This document shows, piece after piece, positions 44,995-59,567 of a stretch of 64,000 nt of DNA (its first letter is position 1; the number at the start of each line of letters is the position of its first letter). Where the stretch lies: contig NZ_CP044523.1 of NCBI RefSeq assembly GCF_008831545.1, forward strand, positions 2,976,001 through 3,040,000. Reading direction: 5' to 3'. Origin of the DNA: Halorussus halophilus (GTDB taxonomy: Archaea > Halobacteriota > Halobacteria > Halobacteriales > Haladaptataceae). Made by a program: the position numbers and the translations under genes. The notes below the pieces were generated by a model. The model ran no database searches. It saw only the letters and a program-made list of their open reading frames with translations, and was not told where the DNA came from.

Positions 44995-45325
44995 ATAGAA
45001 GTCGTTGAACCTCGACTCTGTTTCTGCGATTCGACTCGTCCGAGATAGTGCGTCCGCTCGCCGTCGGTATTCGTTCTAGTTTTCTCGTATATTGGCCATC
45101 AGTATTATTACCTCTCGGTTTGTTTTGCTATCTGCATTTCTCTACGATTTGTAGCCTCAATAGAGATATAGACCTAGATTCTAGACTAATGTCAGACATA
45201 CCTCAGAGAATTTTAGAAATATTAATTTAGATTATTAACTGAAGATAAGTTTATTTTGGTCCAAATGAATTGGTATCTGAGGTGTGGAATGCTAGAAAAA
45301 AGAGAGCAATGCGGCAGAGTGATAC
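44995..45325. other. AT-rich leader before the glycan-like locus
   Basis: 331 bases; from about 45060 on it is far lower in GC than the flanks, with many TTTAGAAA, TATATAG and AATTAAT runs. No gene with haloarchaeal character is found. A TAGAAAAAAG box near 45293-45302 is about 28 nt before ATG 45326. It is the only place for the locus promoter and could also hold regulator sites. Confidence 0.6.
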
Positions 45326-46099
45326 ATGATTGAGCTACGTCGGGACGTCGTAGTAAGTGCAATAATTACGATTGGGCTCGTTACGTCCTTGCTCGTTGCC
45401 GCCCAGCCATCGGCGGCCACGGGCGTCACGGTGTCCGGCCCGGACACCGTGAGTGTTCCAGAAACGGTCACGTACACGGCCGCCGTCGAAGTTCCGAGCG
45501 ACGCGACGCTCGACGGTGTGACCTTCGCGCTTCGCCCAGCAGACGGTGAGGACGGGGAAGTCGTCACCATCGACGTGGCACCAGACGGCACGGTTCGGAG
45601 CGTGACGCCCGAGCGCGGCGTCGTCGGCGAGGGCGAGATTCGCGTCAACCGCTTGCGAAAGTCCCTCGACGTGACCCGACTCGACCGAGACGGCGACTCG
45701 GGTTACGGCTACGGCTACGGGTATGGCTACGGCTACGGCGACGACGAACGAACCGTGGTCTTCGAAATCCAACTCGACGCCCGCGCGTTCAAGCAGGGCG
45801 AGTACCTGCTTCGAGCGAGCGCGACGGCAGACGGCGAACCGATCGAAGCGGGTCAACTTCGATTCGCCGTGGAGAAACCGGGCGAGAACCCCGGTGACGG
45901 TGACGACGACAACGGCGACGACGGTAACCAAGGCGACGACGGTAACCAAGGCGACGGTGACGACGGCAACGACGGCGACCGAAACAGCGACCTGCGAGAC
46001 TTCGTGCGCCGCGTCGTCTCCGTCGTCGCCGACCTCGTACGGTCCATCTTCGAGGACAGGGCGACGAACGGCCACCGAACAGCCTCACTCTTCCGATAG
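45326..46099 (+). CDS. Secreted acidic protein with Tyr-Gly repeat
   Basis: 257 residues. An N-terminal membrane/signal segment (about 5-30) precedes a strand-rich domain (about 33-165) of the immunoglobulin-like secreted type. Residues 126-138 are a perfect (GY)n run, six Tyr in alternation with Gly. After the domain comes a low-complexity Gly/Asp/Asn/Gln tract (about 188-215) and a last helix rich in Val and Arg. It starts the locus and is three bases from the flippase gene. Structural or polymer-anchoring role guessed; no family recognised. Confidence 0.8.
   Translation: MIELRRDVVVSAIITIGLVTSLLVAAQPSAATGVTVSGPDTVSVPETVTYTAAVEVPSDATLDGVTFALRPADGEDGEVVTIDVAPDGTVRSVTPERGVVGEGEIRVNRLRKSLDVTRLDRDGDSGYGYGYGYGYGYGDDERTVVFEIQLDARAFKQGEYLLRASATADGEPIEAGQLRFAVEKPGENPGDGDDDNGDDGNQGDDGNQGDGDDGNDGDRNSDLRDFVRRVVSVVADLVRSIFEDRATNGHRTASLFR
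45701..45739 (+). repeat. Codon repeat encoding alternating Gly-Tyr
   Basis: Thirteen codons alternate GGN and TAY, mostly GGCTAC, giving a 6-base microsatellite inside the secreted protein gene. Such tracts expand and contract easily by slippage in steps of two codons, so length variation between strains is expected. Confidence 0.85.
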
Positions 46100-46102
46100 T
46101 CG

Positions 46103-47446
46103 ATGTCGGGAGAGTTTTCCGGTCGAACTATCGGCCGACGACTGCTTGCGTTCGGACAGACGACCGTCACCGCACTCCGCGGGGCACTCCGGGCCGACGA
46201 CCTGCTCAGACACGGCGGGCTGATGTCGGCGGCGACCGTCCTCATCGGCGGACTAAACTACCTCTATCAGGTGTTCGTCGGACGAGCGCTCGGCCCCGAG
46301 CAGTACGGCGTCTTCGGGGCGGCGTTCGCCCTGCTGTACCTCGTGAACGTCCTCGGAACCGGCGTTCGGTTCAGTTCCTCGCGGTTCGTCGCGGAACTAG
46401 ACGGCGAGCGCGGTGCGCTCGGAACTAATGGGTCGGTCGGCGCGTTCGTCACCGGCCTGCAACTCCGAGCGACCGCGTTCGGCGCAGTCGTGTTCGGCGG
46501 CCTCGCGCTGGCCAGCGGACCGGTCGCGTCGTTCGTCGGCTTGGGTGACCCGACACTGGTCGTGCTCGTCGCGCTGAACGGCTTCGGCGTCCTCGTCCTG
46601 CGGGCGAATTTGGGGGCGCTACAGGGCCTCCAACGCTTCGGCGCGCTCGCGGGCTATCGACTCTCGCTGGCCGTGCTGAAACTCGCCGCGGCAGTCGCGC
46701 TCGTCGCCGCGGGCTACGCCGCGGCGGGCGCACTCGGTGCGGTCGTGCTGGCCGTCCTCGCACTGCTCGTCGTCACGACGGCGTGGATACACGCTCAGTT
46801 CGAGGGTGGCCTCCGCGCCGTCCCCGACCGACTCCGTGGTCACGACTTCGACTACCGGCGGGCGTACCGCTACGCGCCCGCCGCCACGCTCGCTGGCTTC
46901 TGCCTGACGGTGCCTGCGACGGCGGACGTCATCGTCGTCAAGCACTTCTTCACGGACCATCAGGCGGGCCTCTACACGGCCGCGAGCGTCCTCGGCAAAG
47001 TGCTGGTCTTCCTCCCGACCGGCATCACGTCGGCGCTGTTCCCGAAGGTCTCCCACGACCGAGCGGACGACCAGCGGTTGCACGGCCTACTCGACCGGGC
47101 GCTCGCCTACTCGGCGGCCGTCGCCGGAGCGGGCGCGCTGGCCTACTGGGTCGCGCCCCGTTTCCTGCTAGCGCTCGTCTTCGGCCCGGCGTACGTCGAG
47201 GCCGCGCCACTCCTGCGCTGGTACGGGCTGGCCATCGTGGCGGCCGTCCTCGCAATCGTGGTTCTCAACTTCCAACTCGCGCGCGACCGCAACCGCTTCG
47301 TCTACGTCTTCACCGCGGCCTCGTGCGTCGAGATTCTGCTGCTCTGGCGCTTTCACGCCTCTATGATCCAGGTGGTTCAGGTGATGGTGGTCACCAACGC
47401 CCTCCTCTTCGCGTATGGGTACGTCGCTGTGAAACTGAAACAATGA
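46103..47446 (+). CDS. Polysaccharide/oligosaccharide flippase (Wzx/MATE-like)
   Basis: 447 residues with about 12-14 membrane helices. The N-terminal part (GGLMSAATVLIGGLNYLYQVFVGRALGPEQYGVF) and the second half (LAGFCLTVPATADVIVVKHFFTDHQAGLYTAASVLGKVLVFLP) are typical of MOP-superfamily flippases. It would move a lipid-linked oligosaccharide across the membrane. It is 3 bases after the secreted-protein gene and overlaps the next gene by 4 (ATGA). Confidence 0.9.
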   Translation: MSGEFSGRTIGRRLLAFGQTTVTALRGALRADDLLRHGGLMSAATVLIGGLNYLYQVFVGRALGPEQYGVFGAAFALLYLVNVLGTGVRFSSSRFVAELDGERGALGTNGSVGAFVTGLQLRATAFGAVVFGGLALASGPVASFVGLGDPTLVVLVALNGFGVLVLRANLGALQGLQRFGALAGYRLSLAVLKLAAAVALVAAGYAAAGALGAVVLAVLALLVVTTAWIHAQFEGGLRAVPDRLRGHDFDYRRAYRYAPAATLAGFCLTVPATADVIVVKHFFTDHQAGLYTAASVLGKVLVFLPTGITSALFPKVSHDRADDQRLHGLLDRALAYSAAVAGAGALAYWVAPRFLLALVFGPAYVEAAPLLRWYGLAIVAAVLAIVVLNFQLARDRNRFVYVFTAASCVEILLLWRFHASMIQVVQVMVVTNALLFAYGYVAVKLKQ

Positions 47447-49593
47447 GCAAGAACGAAACCGAGACTCGAACAGACGAATCGACAGTCGAACCGGCCGCCG
47501 CGGACGCGGCGACCGATTCGGGGAAGCAAAACGGAGCGGTCGAAGCAAGTAACGAAAGCGGAGCGGAACCAGCGAGTGAACGGAGTGAAGCGACAGAAAC
47601 GAGCGAACAGGGGACCGATTCGGACGACGAGACACCGCCGCGACGGCCCGTCTCGAAGTCCACGACAGCGGCCGGGACGGCGAAGCAAGCCAGCGAGCCG
47701 ACCCGAGCCGTCGTCCTCCCCATCTACGACGAACCGGTCGAATCGTGGGTCGGACTCGTCGAGGAACTACTCGCGGCCGACTGGGACGAGGTCGTCGTCT
47801 GCGCCGACGACCCCGGTTGGTCGGGAAGCAAGGCACTTCGCGACATCGACGGCGAGGAGCGCGTGACGCTCTCGGTCAGCGACGACCGGCGGGGCAAAGG
47901 CGGCGCACTCATCGACGGCCTCGACGCCAGCGACGCCGACGTAATCGGCTTCGTGGACGCCGACGGTGCCATCGACGTGCAGGAGTTGGCCTGCCTCTAC
48001 CGCGTAGTCGAGAGCGGCGACGCCGACGTGGCCATCGGTTCCCGGGGAATTTCGAGAGAGCGACGAGCGGGGCAATCGACGCTCCGGCGTGCGTTTGCCG
48101 CCGGATACAGCGCCCTCGCGAGACGTGCGACCGGCGTCCCAGTTCGGGACTTCCAGTGTGGTGCGAAGGCGTTCACTCGCGAGGCGTGGGAGAGCGTCAC
48201 CGCTCACAACGCCGAGGAGGGGTTTTCGTTCGACACGGAACTGGTCGCCAGACTCTACCACCGCGGGTTCACCATCCGGGAAGTGTCCATCGAGTGGAAC
48301 GACAGCGGCGACTCGGACGTGCAACTGAAGAGCGACGTGCCGAAGATGCTGTCGTCTCTCCAGCGCATTCGGCGCACTCGCACCGCCGCGCCGGGGCGTG
48401 CCTCGACGCCGGGAAGCCAGCAGGTAGCGATGGTGTCGTGTCATCCGCCGTTACAGGGCCACCTCTCGGAGTACTGCGAAGCCCTCGCAACCGAACTCGG
48501 GGCGCGCGACGACGTTGACCTGACCGTCCTCGCACAGTGTTCGGACGACGCGCCGAGCGTCGAACATCGCGACGACTACGTCGTCCGTCGCGTCTGGCAA
48601 CGCGACTCGGCGAGAGGAACGGCGAGTCTGCTCCGCGAACTCGTCGGCAACGACTACGACGTGGTTCACTTCAACATCCACATGACATACTTCGGGACGA
48701 AGAACCGCTATCGGTTCGCGGGTCTCGCGCTCCCGCCGCTGATAAGCCGACTCTCCGACGCCTCGGTCGTGACGACGCTCCACGACCTGCTGGAAGTCGT
48801 GGACGACCAGGTGGTCGAAGAGGAAATCGGCGTGATGGAGCGACTCGGCGCGGTGGCGGCGACCCAGATGGTCCTGTTGGGCGACGCGACGACGGTCACT
48901 TCCGAGGAGTACTTGGACGTGGTGACGAGTCGGTATCAGGCTCCGGACGTTCGCCACGTACCACACGGGACGTTCCGGACGGCCAGCGAACGAGCGGCGG
49001 GTGAACGGACGACCACCGAGCTGCCAGACCTGGACGCTCCCTTGCGCATCATGGTGTTCGGTCACCTCGGGCCGACGAAGGACGTGGAGACGATGGTCGA
49101 AGCGATGGAGTTCGTCCACGAGGAGGTGCCCGACGCCGAACTCTGGATAGCGGGCGACTCCCATCCGGGGTACCCGGGCTACCGCGAGCAGTTGGAGAAG
49201 AAGTTCTCGGGCACGCCCGGCGTTCGGTTCACGGGCTACGTCGAAGACCACGAGATGGACGAACTCTGGGAGAGCGCGAGTCTACTGGCGATGCCGTATC
49301 GCACCTGCACGGGCGTCAGCGGCGTCTTCCAGTTGGCGAAGTCGTACGGGCGGCCAGTGCTCGCCTTCGACGTAGAAGGGATGCGAACCGCGACCGTCGA
49401 GACCGGCGGGAGCGCCTCGTTCGTGCCGGAGGGTCGCCCCGAGGAAATCGCGAGTCGAATCGTCGAGTTGTGGGACGACCGCGAGCGACTCACCGAGATG
49501 GCCAGCGAGAACGCCGCCGCCTCCGACGAGTTCACGATGGCCGACGCGGCCGAACGCTTCGCGGAGGTGTACGGCGAATGCCAGACGCGGTGA
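47443..49593 (+). CDS. Fusion glycosyltransferase: GT2 (DPM-like) plus GT4
   Basis: 716 residues. Residues 1-85 are disordered and acidic. The GT2 domain (about 88-310) starts with VVLPIYDEP, has the DxD motif as D172-A-D174 in GFVDADGA, and contains DFQCGAKAF, typical of dolichyl-phosphate glucosyl/mannosyltransferase-like enzymes. A GT-B type GT4 domain (about 335-716) follows, with VSCHPPLQGHLSEY at the start, HFNIHMTYFG, and the donor region GVSGVFQLAKSYGRPVLAFD. Single-chain GT2-GT4 fusions are unusual. It overlaps the flippase stop and the next start. Confidence 0.88.
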   Translation: MSKNETETRTDESTVEPAAADAATDSGKQNGAVEASNESGAEPASERSEATETSEQGTDSDDETPPRRPVSKSTTAAGTAKQASEPTRAVVLPIYDEPVESWVGLVEELLAADWDEVVVCADDPGWSGSKALRDIDGEERVTLSVSDDRRGKGGALIDGLDASDADVIGFVDADGAIDVQELACLYRVVESGDADVAIGSRGISRERRAGQSTLRRAFAAGYSALARRATGVPVRDFQCGAKAFTREAWESVTAHNAEEGFSFDTELVARLYHRGFTIREVSIEWNDSGDSDVQLKSDVPKMLSSLQRIRRTRTAAPGRASTPGSQQVAMVSCHPPLQGHLSEYCEALATELGARDDVDLTVLAQCSDDAPSVEHRDDYVVRRVWQRDSARGTASLLRELVGNDYDVVHFNIHMTYFGTKNRYRFAGLALPPLISRLSDASVVTTLHDLLEVVDDQVVEEEIGVMERLGAVAATQMVLLGDATTVTSEEYLDVVTSRYQAPDVRHVPHGTFRTASERAAGERTTTELPDLDAPLRIMVFGHLGPTKDVETMVEAMEFVHEEVPDAELWIAGDSHPGYPGYREQLEKKFSGTPGVRFTGYVEDHEMDELWESASLLAMPYRTCTGVSGVFQLAKSYGRPVLAFDVEGMRTATVETGGSASFVPEGRPEEIASRIVELWDDRERLTEMASENAAASDEFTMADAAERFAEVYGECQTR

Positions 49594-49778
49594 GCGAGCA
49601 GCAGCGCGCGAAAAAGCGACGAACCGCCAGAGACGCACTCTCCCGACTCGCCGACGCCGACTGCCCGCTTCCGAACTGTGAGGGTACCCTATCGCGCGGC
49701 GAGTTCAAAGACACCGACGCGGTGGTCTGTCCGGACTGCGAGACGCCCGCAGTCCGCGTCTGGGGTGAGGAGCCGTGA
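49578..49778 (+). CDS. Small zinc-ribbon protein
   Basis: 66 residues from ATG 49578; GTG 49590 (making a GTGA overlap) is an equally good start. Two Cys pairs, C-x(4)-C and C-x-x-C (DCPLPNC and CPDC), form one rubredoxin-like zinc ribbon with a helical N-terminus rich in Arg/Lys. It sits inside the operon, overlapping both neighbours, so it probably acts with them; partner or nucleic-acid binding are the common roles of such ribbons. Confidence 0.7.
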   Translation: MPDAVSEQQRAKKRRTARDALSRLADADCPLPNCEGTLSRGEFKDTDAVVCPDCETPAVRVWGEEP

Positions 49779-51163
49779 CGGACGGCCCGGTCGAACGACT
49801 CGAAAGCGCAGGAATGCGAGCGGCGGGCTACCTGCCGAACGCAGTCGTCCGGCGACTCGCTCGGCCGTACAACCGGGTACAGCGCAGACGGGCAGACAGA
49901 ACATTCCAAGCCCGAGAGCGAGAGGAGTTGGCTCCCGCCACTGATGCCCCCCAACACGTCCTCGTGGTCGTCGTGGACGCGCTCCGCGCAGACACCCTCG
50001 ACACCTCGCTGACGCCGTTCCTCCACGAGCGGTCGGTCGAGACCGCTCGCACGCCCGCGCCGTGGACGTTCCCCGCAGTCTCCTCGCTGTTCACAGGGCA
50101 GTACCCCCACGAACACGGAGCGATGCGCCAATCCGACGATGCAAATCGGGGGGCGGACGACCTCGTGGTGCCCCCGCAACTCCCCGACGACCAGCAGTTG
50201 CTCTCGGACGCGTTCGCCGCCGCGGGCTACGACACTTACGGCGCGTTCGCGTTCCATATGCCCTTCTTCGCGCTGTCGGGGCGGTTCGAGCGCCACGCGC
50301 TGTACGACGACGCACCAGCGAAGGAGTTGCTGGCTGACTATCGAAACTGGCTGGACGAGCGCAGCGACGAGCGAACCTTCGCATATCTGCATCTTGGCGA
50401 CCTCCACGAACCCGTGGACCCGCCAGGGTGTTACTGGCTGAAACACGACGTAGACGACAGTATCCAAAATATTCGGCGGTGGGCGTTCGAGACGGAGACC
50501 GACCCCGGTTCGGCCGCGCGACGGTATCAGGCGCATCGAAAACGCCTCTACCGGGCCGCCACGGACTACGTGGACGACCAGCTCCGCGAGTTACGAAACG
50601 GACTCGTGCGCCACGTCGGAGACGAGTTCGCGCTGGTCGTCACTGGCGACCACGGCGAGGCGTTCTGGGAGCATTCGAGCTACGACGCCGACAACTTCGT
50701 GGACTCCAGACCGGCCCACTGCGTGGACCACGGCGGCACCCCCTACGAGTGTCTCACACGGGTGCCGTTGGTCGTCGAGGGCCTCGACGTAGAGGCGGGA
50801 CCAACTTCGCTCATCGACATCGCGCCGACGCTCTGCGACGCGCTCGGACACCCCAACGCGCTCTCGACCAGCGGAAAATCGCTGTTCGAGGAGCGCCCGG
50901 ACGACCGGGTGTTGCTCGTGGAGGCCGCGCGCTACGGCCACGAGAAGAAGGCCGCCTACTCTGGCGACTGGAAGCTCCTCGTCTCGAAGGGCGACGACGT
51001 GGCGGCAGGCTTCTCGCTCCCCGACGAAGACCCGACCGACCTCCCGAGAGACGTAGAACGGCGACTCGCCGAGACACTGCCACCGTGGCCGGACGGGACA
51101 GGTGCCGACGTGAGCGTCTCCGGCATCGCACGCGACAGACTGGAGGACCTCGGCTATGTCTGA
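49775..51163 (+). CDS. Alkaline-phosphatase/sulfatase superfamily protein 1
   Basis: 462 residues from GTG 49775 (GTGA overlap with the previous stop). VLVVVVDALRADTL holds the first metal aspartate; the active-site region is APWTFPAVSSLFTGQYPHEHG, where the nucleophile would be Thr or Ser; VVTGDHGEAFWEH and VDHGGTPYE supply later metal ligands. There is no sulfatase CxPxR motif, so a phosphate- or phosphoethanolamine-type transferase/hydrolase acting on polymers or lipids is more likely. No signal peptide or membrane helix. The end RDRLEDLGYV is common in this group. Confidence 0.87.
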   Translation: MTDGPVERLESAGMRAAGYLPNAVVRRLARPYNRVQRRRADRTFQAREREELAPATDAPQHVLVVVVDALRADTLDTSLTPFLHERSVETARTPAPWTFPAVSSLFTGQYPHEHGAMRQSDDANRGADDLVVPPQLPDDQQLLSDAFAAAGYDTYGAFAFHMPFFALSGRFERHALYDDAPAKELLADYRNWLDERSDERTFAYLHLGDLHEPVDPPGCYWLKHDVDDSIQNIRRWAFETETDPGSAARRYQAHRKRLYRAATDYVDDQLRELRNGLVRHVGDEFALVVTGDHGEAFWEHSSYDADNFVDSRPAHCVDHGGTPYECLTRVPLVVEGLDVEAGPTSLIDIAPTLCDALGHPNALSTSGKSLFEERPDDRVLLVEAARYGHEKKAAYSGDWKLLVSKGDDVAAGFSLPDEDPTDLPRDVERRLAETLPPWPDGTGADVSVSGIARDRLEDLGYV

Positions 51164-53384
51164 GCAGGTCCGGACCCTGCTGGTCGCCGCACTCGTCTCG
51201 CTGTCGGCCGCAGGTGCCGTCACCGGGCACGCGAGCGCTGCCGGGGCGACGACTATCGACGCCTGTACCACACTCGACGCACCCGGTTCGTACGTCCTCA
51301 CTGCCGATATCGTCACGAGCGAGGACGGCGACTGCATTACGGTCGCGGCGGCCGACGTGACCATCGACGGCGACGGGCACACTATCGACGGAACGTGGGA
51401 CCGCAGTCAGTCGCGGTACGTCGTGGGCGTCAACGTGACCGAGTCCAACGTCACCGTCCGAAATCTCGACGTCGTGCAGTTCTCGCGCGGCATCAACGTC
51501 GTCGGCGGGAGCGACGGAAACGCGGTCGTCAACGTTACTATCGAAGACGCGTGGTTCGGCGTTCGGCTTGGAGACGGCGGAGCGAGCGACGACAACCTCG
51601 TCACCGAGAGCAGCATCTCCTACACGTCGGTCGGCGTCCGGGTCAGTCCGGGCGGACGGAACAACGCGGTGACCGACAACACGTTCGGGCTTAGCTGGCA
51701 CCGCGACGTCCGGGTGCTGTCTGCGACCGGGACGACCCTCCGCGGAAACGACGCCCACCAATTCGAGGTGGTCGATTCGACGGGCACCGAAATCGAGGCG
51801 AACGCGGTCGGGAGACTTCGACTCTCCAACGCCGACAGCGCAACCGTCACCAACAACACGGTGGTAGACGGCGGCATCGACCTGTTAGACGGCTCTGACA
51901 GCAACTTCGTCTCGCACAACGTCGTCCGGGGCGGTTTGGATGGCTTCGACGTTCGCAACTCCCACGAGAACAGCTTCGTCAACAACACCGTCGAACACCC
52001 GGTTCAGTACGGCTACAACCTCGACCACGCTCGGAGCAACACGATACGCGACAGTCGCATCGTCGAGAGTGGTTGGGACGGCGTCTCCATCTACGGCGGG
52101 AGCGACAATCTGCTCGCCGACTCCACCATCCGGCGAGGCGACGGCGTCGGCGTCTACCTCGCGCAGACAGACATGAACGCGGTGGTCGATACGACCATCG
52201 TGAGCAACGCCGACGGAGGCGTCCACCTCTGGCGGACCGGTCCCAACCTGCTCGAAGCGAACGAAGTTAGGGACAACGACCAAGCTGGCGTGTTCGTGGA
52301 GGAATCGGAGGGCGTAGACGTGAGAGCCACGAGCCTGACCGACAACCAGCAGGCAGGGGTCAGAATCGAGCGCTCACAAGAGATGGAAGTCGAGGATATC
52401 GTCGCACGCTCGAACGGCGGTACCGGCGTCAGACTCCACGGGACCAGCGACAGCACCGTCCACGATGCGGTGGCCGAGGGCAACGACCGCGGCGTGTGGC
52501 TCTCACGGAGCCCCGACAACAACGTCTCGAACGCGAGCGTGAACTTCAACGAGTACGCAGGCGTGCTGGTCGCCGCGTCGAACCGCACCACCATCGACGG
52601 CGTCGAGACCACTGGAAACCGGTTCGGCGTCCACGTCTCGGGGTCGAGCCGAACCGCGATTACTAACGTCACAGCCGTGCAGAACGACTGGGGCGGCATC
52701 CGCGTGGACGCCGGCGGTTCCGAGACTCCGGGACCCGACGTAGCGATTGGCAACCACTTGGAGAACGTCACGGCGTTCGACAACGACATCTCCGGCGTTC
52801 GACTCGCCGGAACGAGAGACACGACGGTCGAGAACGCGACGGTCGAGGCGAATCGCTACGGCGTCTGGCTCTCGGGGGCGACGGACAGTCGTCTCTCGTC
52901 GGTCGCGGCGACGGACGCCTCGGGCTGGGAGTTCCTGGCGACCGCTGGCACGACGAACGCGACGGCGACGAACCTGACGCTGGGGCCGGAAGCTGTCGTT
53001 TCGGTCGTGGCGACAGACGTTGCACTCGGGTCGGTAGAGCGACAGCCGTGGCTCCCCGAGGGCTACGTCGGAATCGAGCGGTTCGTCCGCACCCAACCGA
53101 CCAGTTCGTCGGCCCGACTCGACCTTGCGGTCAGCTACGAACAGGAGACAGTATCAGACGCAGACACCACCGAGGACGCCCTCGAACTCTGGCGGTTCGA
53201 CGGAGAGTGGTCCACGGTATCGAACAGTGCAGTCTACAGCGAGGACAACTACGTGAACGCAACACTCACCGAATTCGGACTCATCGCACCGCTCGGCGAA
53301 CGAACGAACGCGACGACTGGAACGGAATCACAGAACGCGCCGGCCGCACGCTCGGCCCGACCCTCGTCGGAGGTGGTCGCGTGA
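51156..53384 (+). CDS. Secreted right-handed beta-helix protein
   Basis: 742 residues. A signal peptide (about 1-30) is followed by a pectate-lyase-like start (DACTTLDAPGSYVLTADI, then DVTIDGDGHTIDG) and at least fifteen repeated coils of about 22 residues (for example NVTVRNLDVVQFSRGINVVGG), as in NosD/PbH1 proteins. Many N-x-S/T sequons are present. A non-helix domain (about 625-720) follows. It would bind or process long polysaccharide chains at the surface. Overlaps the previous stop by 8 bases and the next start by 4. Confidence 0.9.
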   Translation: MSEQVRTLLVAALVSLSAAGAVTGHASAAGATTIDACTTLDAPGSYVLTADIVTSEDGDCITVAAADVTIDGDGHTIDGTWDRSQSRYVVGVNVTESNVTVRNLDVVQFSRGINVVGGSDGNAVVNVTIEDAWFGVRLGDGGASDDNLVTESSISYTSVGVRVSPGGRNNAVTDNTFGLSWHRDVRVLSATGTTLRGNDAHQFEVVDSTGTEIEANAVGRLRLSNADSATVTNNTVVDGGIDLLDGSDSNFVSHNVVRGGLDGFDVRNSHENSFVNNTVEHPVQYGYNLDHARSNTIRDSRIVESGWDGVSIYGGSDNLLADSTIRRGDGVGVYLAQTDMNAVVDTTIVSNADGGVHLWRTGPNLLEANEVRDNDQAGVFVEESEGVDVRATSLTDNQQAGVRIERSQEMEVEDIVARSNGGTGVRLHGTSDSTVHDAVAEGNDRGVWLSRSPDNNVSNASVNFNEYAGVLVAASNRTTIDGVETTGNRFGVHVSGSSRTAITNVTAVQNDWGGIRVDAGGSETPGPDVAIGNHLENVTAFDNDISGVRLAGTRDTTVENATVEANRYGVWLSGATDSRLSSVAATDASGWEFLATAGTTNATATNLTLGPEAVVSVVATDVALGSVERQPWLPEGYVGIERFVRTQPTSSSARLDLAVSYEQETVSDADTTEDALELWRFDGEWSTVSNSAVYSEDNYVNATLTEFGLIAPLGERTNATTGTESQNAPAARSARPSSEVVA

Positions 53385-54868
53385 AGGTCTGTGTCGTCGG
53401 TCTCGACGGTGCGACGTGGGACCTGCTCGACCCGTGGTTAGACGAGTTGCCCACACTCAGCAAATTTGCCGACTCGATGCGCGCGGACCTCGACAGTTGC
53501 GTCCCACCCATCTCGATTCCGGCGTGGAAGTGCTACGCCACCGGGATGTCTCCCGGCGATTTAGGCGTGTTCACGTTCGTGGAACCGGACTTCGAGCGCG
53601 AGCGGTTCACCACCGTGAGCAACGAGACGTTCACCCACCGGGAAATCTGGGACTACCTCGGCGAAGCAGGGAGAGAAAGCGCCGTCGTCAACATGCCGAG
53701 TACGTCGCCGCCACGGGAAATAGACGGCTCGATGGTCGCCGGACCGTTCGCCGACGCCGACGACTTCGCGCGGCCGCCGTCCTTACAGAAGAGACTCGCC
53801 GCGGACGACTACACGGTCCTGCCGGAGTACTACCTGACCCGGGACGAAGACGACTTGGACGACGCCGTCGCGGCCGCCCACGAGAAGTTCGACGTGGCGG
53901 TCGAGTTGTCCGAAGACGCCGACTTCGTCCACGTCACGATTTACGTCACCGACACCGTCCAGCACACCGAGTGGGACTCGGCGGCCTGCAAGGAGTTCTG
54001 GAAGGGCATCGACCGAGAACTCGGTCGGTTCGTGGAGCGACTCGGCTCCGAGTGGAACGTCGTGCTGATGTCCGACCACGGGTTCGGTCGCTCGAAGGGG
54101 CGATTCTACCTGAACACGTGGCTGGAAGACCACGGCTACATGTCGGTGGACGACGACGGCTTCGACTTCGGCGACGTTGCGGGCGCAGTCGGACTGGACT
54201 ACCAGACCGCGTACGCCATCGTCAACAAACTCCGACTCGCTGGCCTCCTGCGCACCGTCTTCCCGAGCGAGTTGCTCCTGCGAATCGCACGCCAGATGCC
54301 GGGCAACCGGAAGTTGGAGGGCACCCAAGACAAACTCGACTGGGACGGCGACGCCATCGCGCTCGCGCCCCTTATTTACACGAAAGACCGCACCGTCGCC
54401 GAGGAGATTCGAGAGGGCCTACTCGCCGTCGAAGACAGAGCAGGCGAACGATTCATCGACGAGGTTCACTTCGGCGCGGACCTCTGGCCGGACTGCGACG
54501 TGCGGGTGCCGGACCTCGTGGTCGAACACACCGACTACGTCATCAGCGACGTGGTGAAACCCGGCGTCACCTTCGAGTACGAACTCGACGGCGACATCAT
54601 CGCACACCACCGCCGAACGGGAATTCTGTCCGCACTCGGGCCGGACCTCGGCGACCTCGACAAATCGAACCCCCGACTGTACGACGTTGCGCCGACGGTA
54701 CTGGACGCCTTCGACGTGCCGGTGCCCGACGAGATGGAAGGCGAGAGCCTCGGCCTGTTCGGAGAGACCGGCGAGCGCGCGCCGGTCGGCGTCCGGCGCG
54801 ACGAGCCACGCAGACTCGAACACGACGAGGGCGTCGAACAGAAGCTGAAGGACTTGGGCTACCTCTGA
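53381..54868 (+). CDS. Alkaline-phosphatase superfamily/type I phosphodiesterase-like protein 2
   Basis: 495 residues from GTG 53381 (GTGA overlap). VVGLDGATWDLLDPWL begins the metal site, the nucleophile region is PPISIPAWKCYATGMSPGDLGVFTF, and VVLMSDHGFGRSKG and DIIAHHRRTGIL give later ligands. The group is typical of archaeal nucleotide-pyrophosphatase-like proteins found next to glycosyltransferases. No signal peptide, so a cytoplasmic, membrane-face role is inferred. It shares the C-terminal LKDLGYL ending with protein 1, so the two are distant paralogues. Confidence 0.88.
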   Translation: MKVCVVGLDGATWDLLDPWLDELPTLSKFADSMRADLDSCVPPISIPAWKCYATGMSPGDLGVFTFVEPDFERERFTTVSNETFTHREIWDYLGEAGRESAVVNMPSTSPPREIDGSMVAGPFADADDFARPPSLQKRLAADDYTVLPEYYLTRDEDDLDDAVAAAHEKFDVAVELSEDADFVHVTIYVTDTVQHTEWDSAACKEFWKGIDRELGRFVERLGSEWNVVLMSDHGFGRSKGRFYLNTWLEDHGYMSVDDDGFDFGDVAGAVGLDYQTAYAIVNKLRLAGLLRTVFPSELLLRIARQMPGNRKLEGTQDKLDWDGDAIALAPLIYTKDRTVAEEIREGLLAVEDRAGERFIDEVHFGADLWPDCDVRVPDLVVEHTDYVISDVVKPGVTFEYELDGDIIAHHRRTGILSALGPDLGDLDKSNPRLYDVAPTVLDAFDVPVPDEMEGESLGLFGETGERAPVGVRRDEPRRLEHDEGVEQKLKDLGYL

Positions 54869-54869
54869 G

Positions 54870-57725
54870 ATGAGTCTGCGCGCTCACTTGCGGCGACTTC
54901 GGGACCCCCGGACGCTCCGTCACTGTCTCGGCCTGCTCGCGTTCGCCGTCGCGTACGTCGCCCTGCTGTGGGGCATCGAACTCGGCGAACTGTACGCGTT
55001 CGGCGACTTCTCGCCGTACTTCGGCGACCGAGCGTTCGGGAAGTTCGTCGAGACGTGGCACGACCAGCAACTGGGCTACGCGTACATCTACAACGTCCTG
55101 CCCGCGTACATGGGCGCGGTGACTGCCGTCGGAGGTGCGCTCGGCCAGAACCTGTTCTACCTGACGCTGATTCCCTGCGGCTTTCTGGCGTTTTTGGTGT
55201 TCTCGGGGCGGTTCGTCGAGCGACTCGACGCGCGCTATCTCGCCGCTGGCATCTACGCCGTCAACCCGATAACCGTCGGCGAGTTCGCCAACGGCGGCCT
55301 CAGTGCGCTCATCGGCTTCGCGGGGCTGCCGCTCGTGTTGCACTATCTGTACAAAATCACGGAGACTGAGGACTGGGCCGACTCGCTGAAGGCCGGGACC
55401 GTCTTCGGCGCGACGACGGTCGTCCCGTGGCTCGGCTTCTGGATGGTCGGCCCGTTCGCGGCGTTTCTGGCGTACCGGACCTGGCGCGCGCCCAGGACGC
55501 TGGCGAAGTTGGTCGCGGCAGGAGCAATCGGCATTCTGCTCTCCCTGCCGAACGTCCACCACGTCCTCCAACGCGCGGGGAACTTCGACACCGGCAAGAC
55601 GTTACTCTACGAGACACTCAAGTGGAACTACGCGGCGGCCGACCCCCTCGCAGTCGTGCGACTCGCGGGCAACCGTGGCGTGCGAGCGATGAGTCAACTC
55701 GGCTACAACGACGACCCCGCGATGGTCGTCGGTCTCGCCATTCCGGGCATCGCACTGCTCGCGTGGAGACGAACGGAATTGCGGCCATTCTACGCCGTTG
55801 CTGGCGGCGTCGTCGCGTTCGTCAGTCTGACCGGCGCTGGTCTCACGTACCCCCTGTTCGACGCGATTCCGCTGTTATGGTCGGTTCGGAACCCCATCAA
55901 GCTCCAGTATCCGCTGTTGCTGGCGCTCGCGGTGCTATTCGGCGCGGGTCTCGAAGTCGCGCTCGGCCGGACGCCGGGACCTGCTGTCCGCCGCGACTCG
56001 CTGCTCTCCGAGGGACGACTCGGGGGCGACGGAACTGGGCCGCCGATTGCGAACGTCGTGCTGGTCGCCGTCGTGACCCTCTCACTGGTGTCGTACGCCG
56101 CGCCGACGGCGGGCGCGCTCGGGATGGAAGAGATTCGCGGCGACGACTACTCAGTGCCCGAGGAGTACGAGACGATTACCGACAGGTTGGAGGGCAAGGC
56201 GCTGTGGGTGCCGTACGGCTACACGACCCAGTTGCGCCTGCGCCACGCCTACCCGAACCACGTCGGCATCAAGAGCGGCGGCGTCCTCCACGGCATCGAG
56301 AACGTCGAGTACGTCAGGGAGTTGTTCAGTGATTTGGGAGAAGGGAAGGAAGTTCGCCAGCGACTCGCGGCCCTCGGCGTAAAGTACGTCGTGGTCGATG
56401 CAGACGCGCCCGCGCGGTACGACGCCGGGAAGCCGCGACTGGTCGAGAAGTGGGGCGCGCCGTGGCTCTGGGGCAACACCTCGAAGTTCGAGACGCGACT
56501 GAACGAGTCGGTGTCGTTCTCCTTCCGGGAGCGCGTCGATGGCTACGCCGTCTACCAAGTGCAGGGCGTCGAAGTCGAGGGTCGTACGTCCCAGACCGAG
56601 GGTGTCCACGCCGTCTCGGCACCCCAGAAGGCGACCGTCTCGACTGTCGGCGAGAACGTCGTCTCGAACCCCTCGTTCGAGCAGAACTTCACGGACTGGT
56701 GGGCACCGAAGAAAGACGGAGCCACCTCCTTCAAGGTGGTCGAAACCGATTCCGGACCGGCCGCGGAGTTGACGACGGGCGAAGACGAGCAAGCGCTCCC
56801 AATCGCCCAGAAGACGGCGTCGGGAGTTCGCGAGCGCCATCCCTATCGGGTGCGCGTCAACGCCACCGGCGACGGACAGGTACTCCTCTACTGGTACGAC
56901 AACGAGTCTGCGAAGTCGCCGACTGCGGTCGATTCCGTGCCGCTGAACGCTTCCAAGCAGGTCGTCACGGCGCGCGGGTCGGTGCTGTCGATACGCGTGA
57001 AACCGGCCGACGAGCGCGTAGTCGTCGCGGACGTCGGCGTCCGACGGACGACGTATCCGCCGGAGACGGAGTTCCCGGCGGCCGCCGCCCGCGTGCCCGG
57101 CATCGCGGTGAACGCCAGCGAAGCCCCGGACGTGGCGACGAACGTCTCAGTCAACCTCGATTCGGCGAGCGAGACGAACGCGACGGATGCGACGAACGCG
57201 AGCGTCCGACTCGTTGACGCAGAGACGGTTCTCGGCGGCGAGTTGGTCTTCGACGACTCGCTCCGGCAGGGCGTCGGCGTGCGAGTGCCGAAAGAGCGCG
57301 CTGACGACGTAGTGCCGGAGAACGCGACGGTCTACTCCGAACCTGACGGCGAGTCGGTCGTCATCGACTACTGGGTCGTCGGCGCGTTCGACGACTCGTC
57401 GGTGACGGTGCTACACACCTCCTACGACGAGCGGTGGAAGGGGCCGCCGGACGCAGACCACTTCCGGGCCGCCGGGTGGGCGAACGGGTTCACGAACGCC
57501 GACGCAGACGAAATTCGGTGGACCGGCGGCGGGTCTCGACTGCCCGTCGTCAAGTTCTGGCTCCTGTCGTGGCTCTTCGTCGGCGTGGCGCTCGTCGGGA
57601 TTCGACTCCGGGTAGTGGCCAGAGTGAATCGACGACTCGGTTCGCTGACGTCGAGTGGTTCCGCTTCGAGCGTCGATGCTGACCCGCTCGCAGAACGCGA
57701 CACCTCGACAGACGGCGACGACTGA
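54870..57725 (+). CDS. GT-C-like large membrane protein 1
   Basis: 951 residues. About ten to twelve membrane helices fill the first half (about 18-440), with FGDFSPYFGDRAFGKF in the first outside loop, a place where GT-C transferases hold acidic catalytic residues (D, F, D). The second half (about 440-915) is a large exported domain with many N-x-S/T sequons and a carbohydrate-binding-like part (about 600-750, VVSNPSFEQNFTDWWAPKK). One helix near 890-910 ends it. It resembles lipid-linked-sugar glycosyltransferases such as arabinofuranosyltransferase-like or YfhO-like proteins; the sugar is unknown. Starts 1 base after the previous stop. Confidence 0.82.
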   Translation: MSLRAHLRRLRDPRTLRHCLGLLAFAVAYVALLWGIELGELYAFGDFSPYFGDRAFGKFVETWHDQQLGYAYIYNVLPAYMGAVTAVGGALGQNLFYLTLIPCGFLAFLVFSGRFVERLDARYLAAGIYAVNPITVGEFANGGLSALIGFAGLPLVLHYLYKITETEDWADSLKAGTVFGATTVVPWLGFWMVGPFAAFLAYRTWRAPRTLAKLVAAGAIGILLSLPNVHHVLQRAGNFDTGKTLLYETLKWNYAAADPLAVVRLAGNRGVRAMSQLGYNDDPAMVVGLAIPGIALLAWRRTELRPFYAVAGGVVAFVSLTGAGLTYPLFDAIPLLWSVRNPIKLQYPLLLALAVLFGAGLEVALGRTPGPAVRRDSLLSEGRLGGDGTGPPIANVVLVAVVTLSLVSYAAPTAGALGMEEIRGDDYSVPEEYETITDRLEGKALWVPYGYTTQLRLRHAYPNHVGIKSGGVLHGIENVEYVRELFSDLGEGKEVRQRLAALGVKYVVVDADAPARYDAGKPRLVEKWGAPWLWGNTSKFETRLNESVSFSFRERVDGYAVYQVQGVEVEGRTSQTEGVHAVSAPQKATVSTVGENVVSNPSFEQNFTDWWAPKKDGATSFKVVETDSGPAAELTTGEDEQALPIAQKTASGVRERHPYRVRVNATGDGQVLLYWYDNESAKSPTAVDSVPLNASKQVVTARGSVLSIRVKPADERVVVADVGVRRTTYPPETEFPAAAARVPGIAVNASEAPDVATNVSVNLDSASETNATDATNASVRLVDAETVLGGELVFDDSLRQGVGVRVPKERADDVVPENATVYSEPDGESVVIDYWVVGAFDDSSVTVLHTSYDERWKGPPDADHFRAAGWANGFTNADADEIRWTGGGSRLPVVKFWLLSWLFVGVALVGIRLRVVARVNRRLGSLTSSGSASSVDADPLAERDTSTDGDD

Positions 57726-59567
57726 ATGCTCACTGCACTGCGCACCCTCGTAACCCGAGCGCGAGTAGGTCTGTGGACAGCGCGTGGCGCGACCACGGCC
57801 TACTTCGTCGGTCTCTCGCTGTTGGTCTGGGGGCCACTGCTCGCTCCGGGGTACGTCCTCACGCTCGACATGGTGTTCGGGCCGAACGCCGACTACGTGG
57901 CGTACTTGCTGGACGCGAAAGACCCGTTGTACTACGGCCGACTGCCGTTTTTGGCACTGCTGGACGCCGCCGCGCTGGTCGTCCCCGACTGGGCGATTCA
58001 GAAGGTCCTGCTGGTCGCGCTGGTCGCCGTCGCCGGACTCGCGGCCTACCGGGCGTGTCCGGCGCGAGCGCCCGCCGCGAAACTGTTCGCTGGCACGCTG
58101 TACGCGGTCAACCCGTTCGTGTACGTCCGACTGCTCGCGGGCCACTGGTACTTCCTGTGGGGGTACGCGCTCCTGCCGCTGGCGCTCTGGTCGCTAGTGA
58201 GATATCTAGTCGCAGAAGACGGTGAAAAAGTCAGAGAATCCGAACTCCTTCCGGCGGTCGGCTTCGCTACGCTCGTCGCCGTCTTCGACCCGCACGCCGT
58301 GGTGCTGCTCGCGGTGGCGGGCGGCTTTGCGCTCGTCGTGGCGGTCGTAGTTGGTGACCAACTTCGAGCGCCCGTTCGCCGATTCGGCAAATTCGTCGCG
58401 GCGAGCGCAGTCGTCAACAGCTACTGGCTCGGTCCGGCGCTCTGGCACGCCGTCGTCGGTGGCACGAAACTTGCGGCTGTGTCCGGGGCCGACCTCGCGG
58501 TGTTCAAACCGCGACCGACGATTGCGGACAACGTCGCGCTGTCGGTCGCCATGCTCGACGGGTTCTGGCGGGGCGGGGCGACCGCGCCCGCCGCGATGCT
58601 CTCTCTGCCCGTGGCACTGGGTCTCTTCTCTGTCGTCCTCTTTTTCGCGGTGTTCGGCCTTCTGGCAGTGTATCGCGGGGATTCGGCAGTCGAAAAGAGC
58701 GACCCGCAGGTCGCCGTCCTCGCAGGTGCGGTCGCGCTCGCTGGCGCGAGTGGCCTCGTCCTCGCGCTCGGGGTCGCAGACACGCGGACGGAACCGGTGT
58801 TTCGTGCTCTCTTCGAAGCAATTCCGCCGTTCAGAGGGATGCGCGACTCCCAGAAGTTCGCCGGACTGCTCGCACTGGCCTACGCCACGCTCGGGGGACT
58901 CGGCGTGGACGCTTTGCTTCGAGGAACAGAAATACGAATTTCTAGCGTCGGCAAGACGCCACTCGGCGACTGGCAAACAGTAGGGACTGTCGCGGTCGTC
59001 GGTCTCCTGCTCGCGGTGCCGCTCCTCTCGGCGGCACCGATGCTCGGCGGACTGTCGGGCCAAGTCGGGACGACGGAATATCCCGAGGAGTGGCACGCCG
59101 CGAACGACGTGTTTGCGGGCGACGCGCCCGCAGGTGACGCGGGAGAGTACCAGGTGTTAGTGTTGCCGTGGCACCAGTACCTTGACCTCTCGTTCACCGA
59201 ACGAACGGTGGCGAACCCCACGGACCTCTTCTTCGAGCGGCCGGTACTTCGGGGGAAGAACGCCGAAGTCGGAGCGATTCGCAGTCAGGCCACCGACCCT
59301 GAACACGCCCGCGTCCGCGAACTGCTTCGGACGTATCGGGGCGATTCCGACGACGCGTCGAACAGCACGACGGCCCCGTCAAGTGAATTCGGTGCGGCCG
59401 TCGCGCCACTGAACGTGAAGTACGTCGTCCTGCTGAAGGAGACAGACTACCGAACCTACGAGTTCCTCTCGGAGCAGTCGGACCTCGTGGTCGTCCTCGA
59501 AAACGAGAAGGTGGTCGTTTACCGGAACGAGGCGTACGGCGATAGGGGGGCGAGCGCCGGTTCGTGA
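57726..59567 (+). CDS. GT-C-like membrane protein 2
   Basis: 613 residues, starting directly at the upstream stop (TGAATG). About twelve helices, with TLDMVFGPNADYVAYLLDAKDPLYYGRLPF in the first outside loop and LFAGTLYAVNPFVYVRLLAG after, match the same helical plan as protein 1 (AAGIYAVNPITVGEF there). A smaller exported C-terminal domain (about 450-605) ends the protein. The two are related membrane glycosyltransferase-like proteins that may add successive sugars or anchor the polymer. Confidence 0.82.
   Translation: MLTALRTLVTRARVGLWTARGATTAYFVGLSLLVWGPLLAPGYVLTLDMVFGPNADYVAYLLDAKDPLYYGRLPFLALLDAAALVVPDWAIQKVLLVALVAVAGLAAYRACPARAPAAKLFAGTLYAVNPFVYVRLLAGHWYFLWGYALLPLALWSLVRYLVAEDGEKVRESELLPAVGFATLVAVFDPHAVVLLAVAGGFALVVAVVVGDQLRAPVRRFGKFVAASAVVNSYWLGPALWHAVVGGTKLAAVSGADLAVFKPRPTIADNVALSVAMLDGFWRGGATAPAAMLSLPVALGLFSVVLFFAVFGLLAVYRGDSAVEKSDPQVAVLAGAVALAGASGLVLALGVADTRTEPVFRALFEAIPPFRGMRDSQKFAGLLALAYATLGGLGVDALLRGTEIRISSVGKTPLGDWQTVGTVAVVGLLLAVPLLSAAPMLGGLSGQVGTTEYPEEWHAANDVFAGDAPAGDAGEYQVLVLPWHQYLDLSFTERTVANPTDLFFERPVLRGKNAEVGAIRSQATDPEHARVRELLRTYRGDSDDASNSTTAPSSEFGAAVAPLNVKYVVLLKETDYRTYEFLSEQSDLVVVLENEKVVVYRNEAYGDRGASAGS

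Follow-up and report, generated by a model that had tools for sequence, protein, structure and literature searches.

Nine open reading frames, all on the forward strand, fill positions 45326–59567 of the window (the whole 64,000-nucleotide stretch of the Halorussus halophilus genome analysed here), and the widest gap between consecutive genes is 3 bases. The junctions from g1 to g9 measure, in order, +3, −4, −4, −4, −8, −4, +1 and 0 bases; the 3–4-base overlaps described for the run in a first-pass annotation are thus found at g2/g3, g3/g4, g4/g5 and g6/g7, each of 4 nucleotides, but g5 and g6 overlap by 8 nucleotides, g1/g2 and g7/g8 are separated by 3 and 1 nucleotides, respectively, and g8 and g9 abut. 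An AT-rich leader precedes the run (45020–45325, forward strand), with a GC content of 39% in the 300 bases 5′ of g1 against 66% in the cassette, and is a presumed promoter region. The upstream neighbours encode a HIT protein, a HAD hydrolase and a tRNA synthetase, and downstream there are an open reading frame of no assigned function and a gene for a HerA-like ATPase, so that the borders of the cassette look sharp.

The first gene (g1, 45326–46099) encodes a secreted protein of 257 residues with a (GY)6 tract at residues 126–137. It is followed by a MATE/Wzx-type flippase (g2, 46103–47446, 447 residues; PF13440, 1e-10), a fusion of an AglJ/Dol-P-sugar-synthase-like GT2 domain with a GT4 domain assigned by Pfam and NCBIfam models (g3, 47443–49593, 716 residues), an HVO_A0556-family zinc-finger micro-protein (g4, 49590–49778, 62 residues; NF041921) and a cytosolic AlkP-superfamily protein of the Sulfatase type (g5, 49775–51163, 462 residues; PF00884, 3.9e-19). 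Further along lie a secreted NosD-type beta-helix protein (g6, 51156–53384, 742 residues; PF05048, 3.3e-43), a cytosolic AlkP-superfamily protein of the Phosphodiest type (g7, 53381–54868, 495 residues; PF01663, 1.3e-36), a large multi-TM, putatively GT-C-like protein with a CBM-like segment (g8, 54870–57725, 951 residues) and a membrane protein of predicted GT-C fold related by sequence models to MmpA and AftD (g9, 57726–59567, 613 residues). The initial domain calls for the flippase, the GT2–GT4 fusion, the AlkP pair, the zinc ribbon, the beta-helix protein and the two multi-TM proteins all hold, and no Pfam family scored above cut-off in g1, g8 or g9.

Pfam and NCBIfam models detected neither STT3/AglB nor nucleotide-sugar genes among the nine genes, and AglB of this genome lies about 2.2 Mb from the cassette (STT3 proteins at C1:749275 and C1:398425), in agreement with the earlier statement that this is not the standard N-glycosylation locus. 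No dedicated glycan polymerase or ligase was found in the window copy, nor did any of the nine genes match Pfam or NCBIfam models of an initiating phosphoglycosyltransferase or of Wzy polymerase, a divergent family whose absence is not firm.

Conservation and probable transfer of the cassette

The gene-order comparison that had been proposed for this locus was carried out, and it yielded nine cassette copies in total, which fall into three or more family-level groups of Halobacteriales. The order g1-g2-g3-g4-g5-[g7]-g8-g9 is kept in the window copy and in eight other genomes, a recurrence beyond chance, and the genes are kept together in relatives instead of being scattered, supporting both the reality of the run and its reading as a single surface-glycan-like pathway. 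As a unit of nine genes the run holds in part: eight genes recur in identical order in relatives, g5 being present in all copies and g4 recognised in seven of the nine, but g7 is found in four copies and missing from five, and g6 occurs in the window copy only. Accordingly, g7 is an optional member of the cassette and g6, rejected as a core member on account of its absence from all eight other copies, is a local addition. Beta-helix proteins related to g6 are present in 24 of 28 genomes of the family, including the window genome.

Searches across the order detected g8 in 7 of 392 genomes and g9 in 7 of 372 genomes, which are the identical seven that carry g8; the other 27 genomes of the family have neither gene. 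Among the haloarchaea searched, the g9 family occurs only in the cassette, and a search of plasmids for g9 found nothing. Extra copies came from a separate collection, in Halorarius litoreus (Natronomonadaceae) and Halobaculum litoreum (Haloferacaceae). Trees of g2, g3, g5, g8 and g9 agree in setting the grouping (window,(L013,(L014,L015))) against the Halobaculum and Halorarius copies; because of this agreement, and because g8 and g9 co-occur in the same seven genomes, the cassette is one inherited unit and a conserved operon. The low distance correlation of g3 and g5 with the other genes coincides with broken, uncorrected g3 and g5 matches in the L020 copy. Fragmented matches, seen for g3 and g5 of L020 and for g2 of L012, suggest frameshifts or assembly errors.

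The L013 genome shares its family group (f5) with L010–L012, and its cassette nevertheless clusters with the copies of L014 and L015 from group f6. This conflict between family and tree, together with the sparse occurrence of the cassette and its differing flanks, argues that the whole unit was probably transferred horizontally between haloarchaea, differential loss being the alternative. The L013, L014 and L015 copies also share an upstream FilR1/HVO_A0261-type regulator (53–56% identity) and a divergent NAD-dependent epimerase gene (80–81% identity; coordinates for the two genes, L013 15590–17502, L014 2925–4815 and L015 3086–4975), neither of which has a match within the window. Separately, a short inverted repeat (ACTCGC...GCGAGT-like) lies directly before the g1 start codon in L010, L011 and L012, and is perhaps a regulator site.

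Lipid donor, micro-protein and AlkP-superfamily pair

The GT2 half of g3 matches the AglJ model (3.7e-13) and a dolichyl-phosphate hexose transferase model (4.3e-9), in both cases below the equivalog cut-off, and g2 belongs to the MATE/Wzx-type flippase class (PF13440 above cut-off). Taken together with a predicted GT-C protein, these two components follow the logic of bacterial three-component systems, in which a polyprenyl-phosphate-sugar synthase, a MATE flippase and a CBM-bearing GT-C enzyme constitute an established pathway (PMC11127046). The cassette is like these systems (Gtr, and the GT136 ribofuranose system; PMC11127046) in pairing a domain resembling such a synthase with a MATE-type flippase and a putative GT-C protein carrying a CBM-like domain. 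Unlike them, it is archaeal, has its synthase-like domain fused to a GT4, encodes two putative GT-C-type proteins, and adds a secreted (GY)n protein as well as cytosolic AlkP-fold proteins and a zinc micro-protein.

The zinc micro-protein g4 belongs to the HVO_A0556 family, scoring 72.4 bits against NF041921 with its cut-off of 65. Deletion of an HVO_A0556-type zinc finger in Hfx. volcanii gave a mutant that gained biofilm and no longer swarmed (PMC6562870). Where HVO_A0556 zinc-finger genes occur in the two inspected Haloferax plasmids, no glycan genes are near them, and the family name therefore gives no pathway clue. Next to these Haloferax genes (L016 11947–12090 and L017 11947–12090) lies an ABC transporter substrate-binding gene, and genes for cobyric acid synthase and hut genes are close by.

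Both AlkP-superfamily proteins are above cut-off for their families, g5 for PF00884 and PF01663 and g7 for PF01663, and alignments show that metal-ligand-type motifs are kept, with Thr or Ser at the nucleophile position and no formylglycine motif there. Neither protein has TM segments or a signal. The pair had been counted as part of an unusual make-up, a view that we abandon: such proteins are common, with g5-like matches (E ≤ 1e-60) in 47 of 392 genomes, several of the fetched ones near GT4-like or flippase-like genes, and with at least six AlkP-superfamily proteins in the window genome's own AglB locus, one of which shares the PWTFP motif of g5. Since many genomes carry g5-like proteins at loci other than the cassette, g5 and g7 were rejected as cassette markers.

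The phosphate-linked step that the first-pass annotation had proposed for the pair also fares poorly, as published proteins of Hbt. salinarum would, by analogy, point to sulfation instead (PMC11980604). Two AlkP-superfamily proteins of the aglB cluster of that organism, VNG1056C and VNG1057C, of which VNG1057C is cytosolic, sulfate a glycan, according to deletion and to expression in Hfx. volcanii (PMC11980604). Because these two proteins (Agl30 and Agl31) are sulfotransferases (PMC11980604), our favoured guess is that g5 and g7 sulfate a glycan, which on this analogy seems better than a phosphate-linked step. Not every member of the superfamily sulfates, since VNG1063H, the third AlkP protein of the Hbt. 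salinarum cluster, showed no such role (PMC11980604). Tails deduced from the published cloning primers (HLEDLGYL and LEELGYT) resemble those of the window proteins (RLEDLGYV and KLKDLGYL); the comparison with Agl30 and Agl31 is one at superfamily level plus these tail peptides, and LGY-type tails are widespread in such loci. A pattern derived from the VNG1056C primer did not find Hbt. salinarum among the 26 family genomes searched, and 13 genomes of that same family gave no more than weak matches to g5.

A phosphate-linked, teichoic-acid-like polymer, with g5 and g7 performing phosphodiester chemistry, would agree with the Thr or Ser in place of a formylglycine motif, with the Phosphodiest type of g7 and with a BLAST hit of VNG1063H named as lipoteichoic acid synthase family (PMC11980604). 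We nonetheless consider it very unlikely, given that both proteins are without TM segments or signal, that five of the nine copies do without g7, and that sugar sulfation is the activity of related-fold proteins from a haloarchaeal glycan locus. Phosphoglycerol transferases, unlike g5 and g7, are membrane-anchored.

The putative GT-C pair and the secreted (GY)n protein

Structure prediction for g9 gave a moderate model (pLDDT 63, pTM 0.62), with AftD (6w98, Z 22.5) as its top fold match and AglB (3waj; Z 21.1, 323 residues, 3.9 Å) and many other GT-C enzymes also matching; its C-terminal part resembles the globular domain of AglB (3vgp) weakly (Z 5.8). On this model g9 is predicted to carry a GT-C fold, and because the fold is that of AftD and STT3/AglB, g9 may be a final transferase belonging to the cassette itself. 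No PDB sequence match was found for g9, and no WWDYG-type motif was seen in it. All six g9 members tested match the MmpA model NF053599 (best 8e-53), the window protein at about 157 bits (157.6) and under the curated cut-off of 210, and two of the six, with the window protein not among them, match PF11847 (GT-C_AftD, best 1e-10). On the strength of these profile matches we regard g9 as a distant relative of MmpA.

The g8 protein has a C-terminal TM segment and matches CBM_4_9 weakly (best 7.7e-5); beyond this and weak PMT_2 hits it matched no Pfam or NCBIfam family, and it had no noteworthy PDB sequence match. An AlphaFold2 model of g8 built from seven sequences was set aside (pLDDT 37). Alignment of the g8 profile with g9 covers 417 columns (E 3e-4, probability 40%), and this weak match, along with the topology, suggests a GT-C fold for g8 as well. 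An invariant Asp stands just after TM1 in both proteins (Asp46 in g8 and Asp48 in g9), and GT-C enzymes have a catalytic acid at this position.

The kinship of g9 could be taken to mean a lipid-linked envelope glycolipid pathway as in mycolata, with g9 assisting transport or assembly in the manner of MmpA, g8 as the transferase and g1 as a carrier or adaptor. The MmpA matches of all six g9 members are in line with this, as is the presence of a match to the same model in Corynebacterium glutamicum alone among 14 control genomes; MmpA itself is required for trehalose-lipid transport, and is a glycolipid transport factor, not a proven transferase (PMC8698533). As g9 scores under the MmpA cut-off, genes for mycolate-type lipids are missing, and archaeal lipids differ, we judge this reading decidedly unlikely. 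The likeness to AftD and MmpA of the mycobacterial envelope arabinan and trehalose-lipid pathways lies in the sequence models and predicted fold of g9 and in the CBM-like segment of g8, and unlike in those pathways, there are no arabinan or mycolate genes near the cassette. The cassette connects this mycobacterial type of membrane family with haloarchaea.

Every copy opens with the gene for the secreted protein g1, which lacks cysteine and bears a signal segment that in most copies includes paired arginines. All nine copies retain the (GY)n tract, with 2 to 6 uninterrupted repeats, and in L018 it is interrupted by Ser. The majority residue has a mean frequency of 0.92 within the GY tract and of 0.61 across the remainder of the folded part, and a (GY)4G coding pattern occurs, among 28 family genomes, in the window cassette only. 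The protein may be a glycan acceptor, a matrix scaffold or a sugar-binding protein, and represents a testable candidate for a dedicated glycan acceptor.

In one form of this idea, the cassette would serve dedicated protein glycosylation, with g9 (by its AftD/STT3 fold) or g8 glycosylating tyrosines of the (GY)n tract. The leading position of g1, a GY tract better conserved than any other part of a rapidly diverging protein, a coding pattern found only with the cassette and the resemblance of g9 to STT3/AglB are all consistent with such a role. However, a protein acceptor does not follow from the GT-C fold alone, g9 shows no WWDYG-type motif, the GY tract could be structural instead, and we found no precedent for tyrosine O-glycans of haloarchaea in the open-licence literature; we therefore think this reading unlikely. 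If true, it would mean an archaeal tyrosine-O-glycosylated surface or matrix protein, its glycan possibly sulfated, swapped between species as a serotype-like module.

Another haloarchaeon encodes a distant secreted g1-like protein with GYEVG repeats (L103 9409–10191; L099), which, with neighbour names read by eye, adjoins a GT2 and a sugar-nucleotidyltransferase-like gene, and possibly belongs to a wider family of glycan-locus GY proteins.

A proposed pathway for surface glycosylation

We read the cassette, with somewhat better than even confidence, as a self-contained, probably horizontally transferred operon for extracytoplasmic, GT-C-dependent surface glycosylation, and a function at the level of a surface glycan is likely. 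The analysis shows the gene content, the conserved order, the joint occurrence of g8 and g9, the predicted GT-C fold of g9 and the retained GY tract; the individual catalytic steps, the substrate, the sulfation and what g1 and g4 do are inferred as follows. The GT2 half of g3 would charge dolichyl phosphate with a sugar, and its GT4 half would extend the lipid-linked glycan on the cytosolic side with nucleotide sugars from general metabolism. While still in the cytosol, the lipid-linked glycan would be modified by g5, and by g7 where present, most likely through sulfation, before being flipped by g2. Outside the cell, g8 and g9 could transfer sugars or the glycan from dolichyl-phosphate donors, and g1 might be co-exported as a dedicated acceptor or matrix partner by way of its (GY)n tract, with g4 as a putative regulatory micro-protein.

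AglB-anchored N-glycosylation clusters (PMC11980604) share with the cassette a flippase, a GT4 and AlkP-fold proteins, and a g5-type protein is found in the AglB locus of the window genome; unlike these clusters, the cassette lacks AglB and sugar-nucleotide genes and encodes a putative GT-C pair of its own as well as a dedicated secreted protein. In Haloarcula, the Dol-P-sugar synthase AepG feeds an acidic exopolysaccharide (PMC9943897), and this pathway of Haloarcula hispanica is similar in that a Dol-P-sugar synthase supplies a surface glycan that is not N-linked; unlike the cassette, it uses a different gene set, with aepG placed within an aglB cluster (PMC9943897). No description of the cassette was found in the open-licence literature searched, and its known part types, in a combination that we did not find described, appear to form a variant of extracytoplasmic GT-C glycosylation. 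Archaeal surface glycans beyond N-glycosylation are little charted, and the cassette, being compact and sporadic, can be deleted or moved whole; with it one can also test directly whether glycan sulfation by AlkP-fold proteins extends beyond AglB loci.

In the AglB locus of the window genome (L071, G000:C1:745000–764900), three of the AlkP proteins are of the Phosphodiest type and at least three of the Sulfatase type, accompanied by a flippase and a DolP-mannose mannosyltransferase. A neighbour of AglB there bears a VPGVSGGT motif, and we take it to be DUF368/PopT-like.
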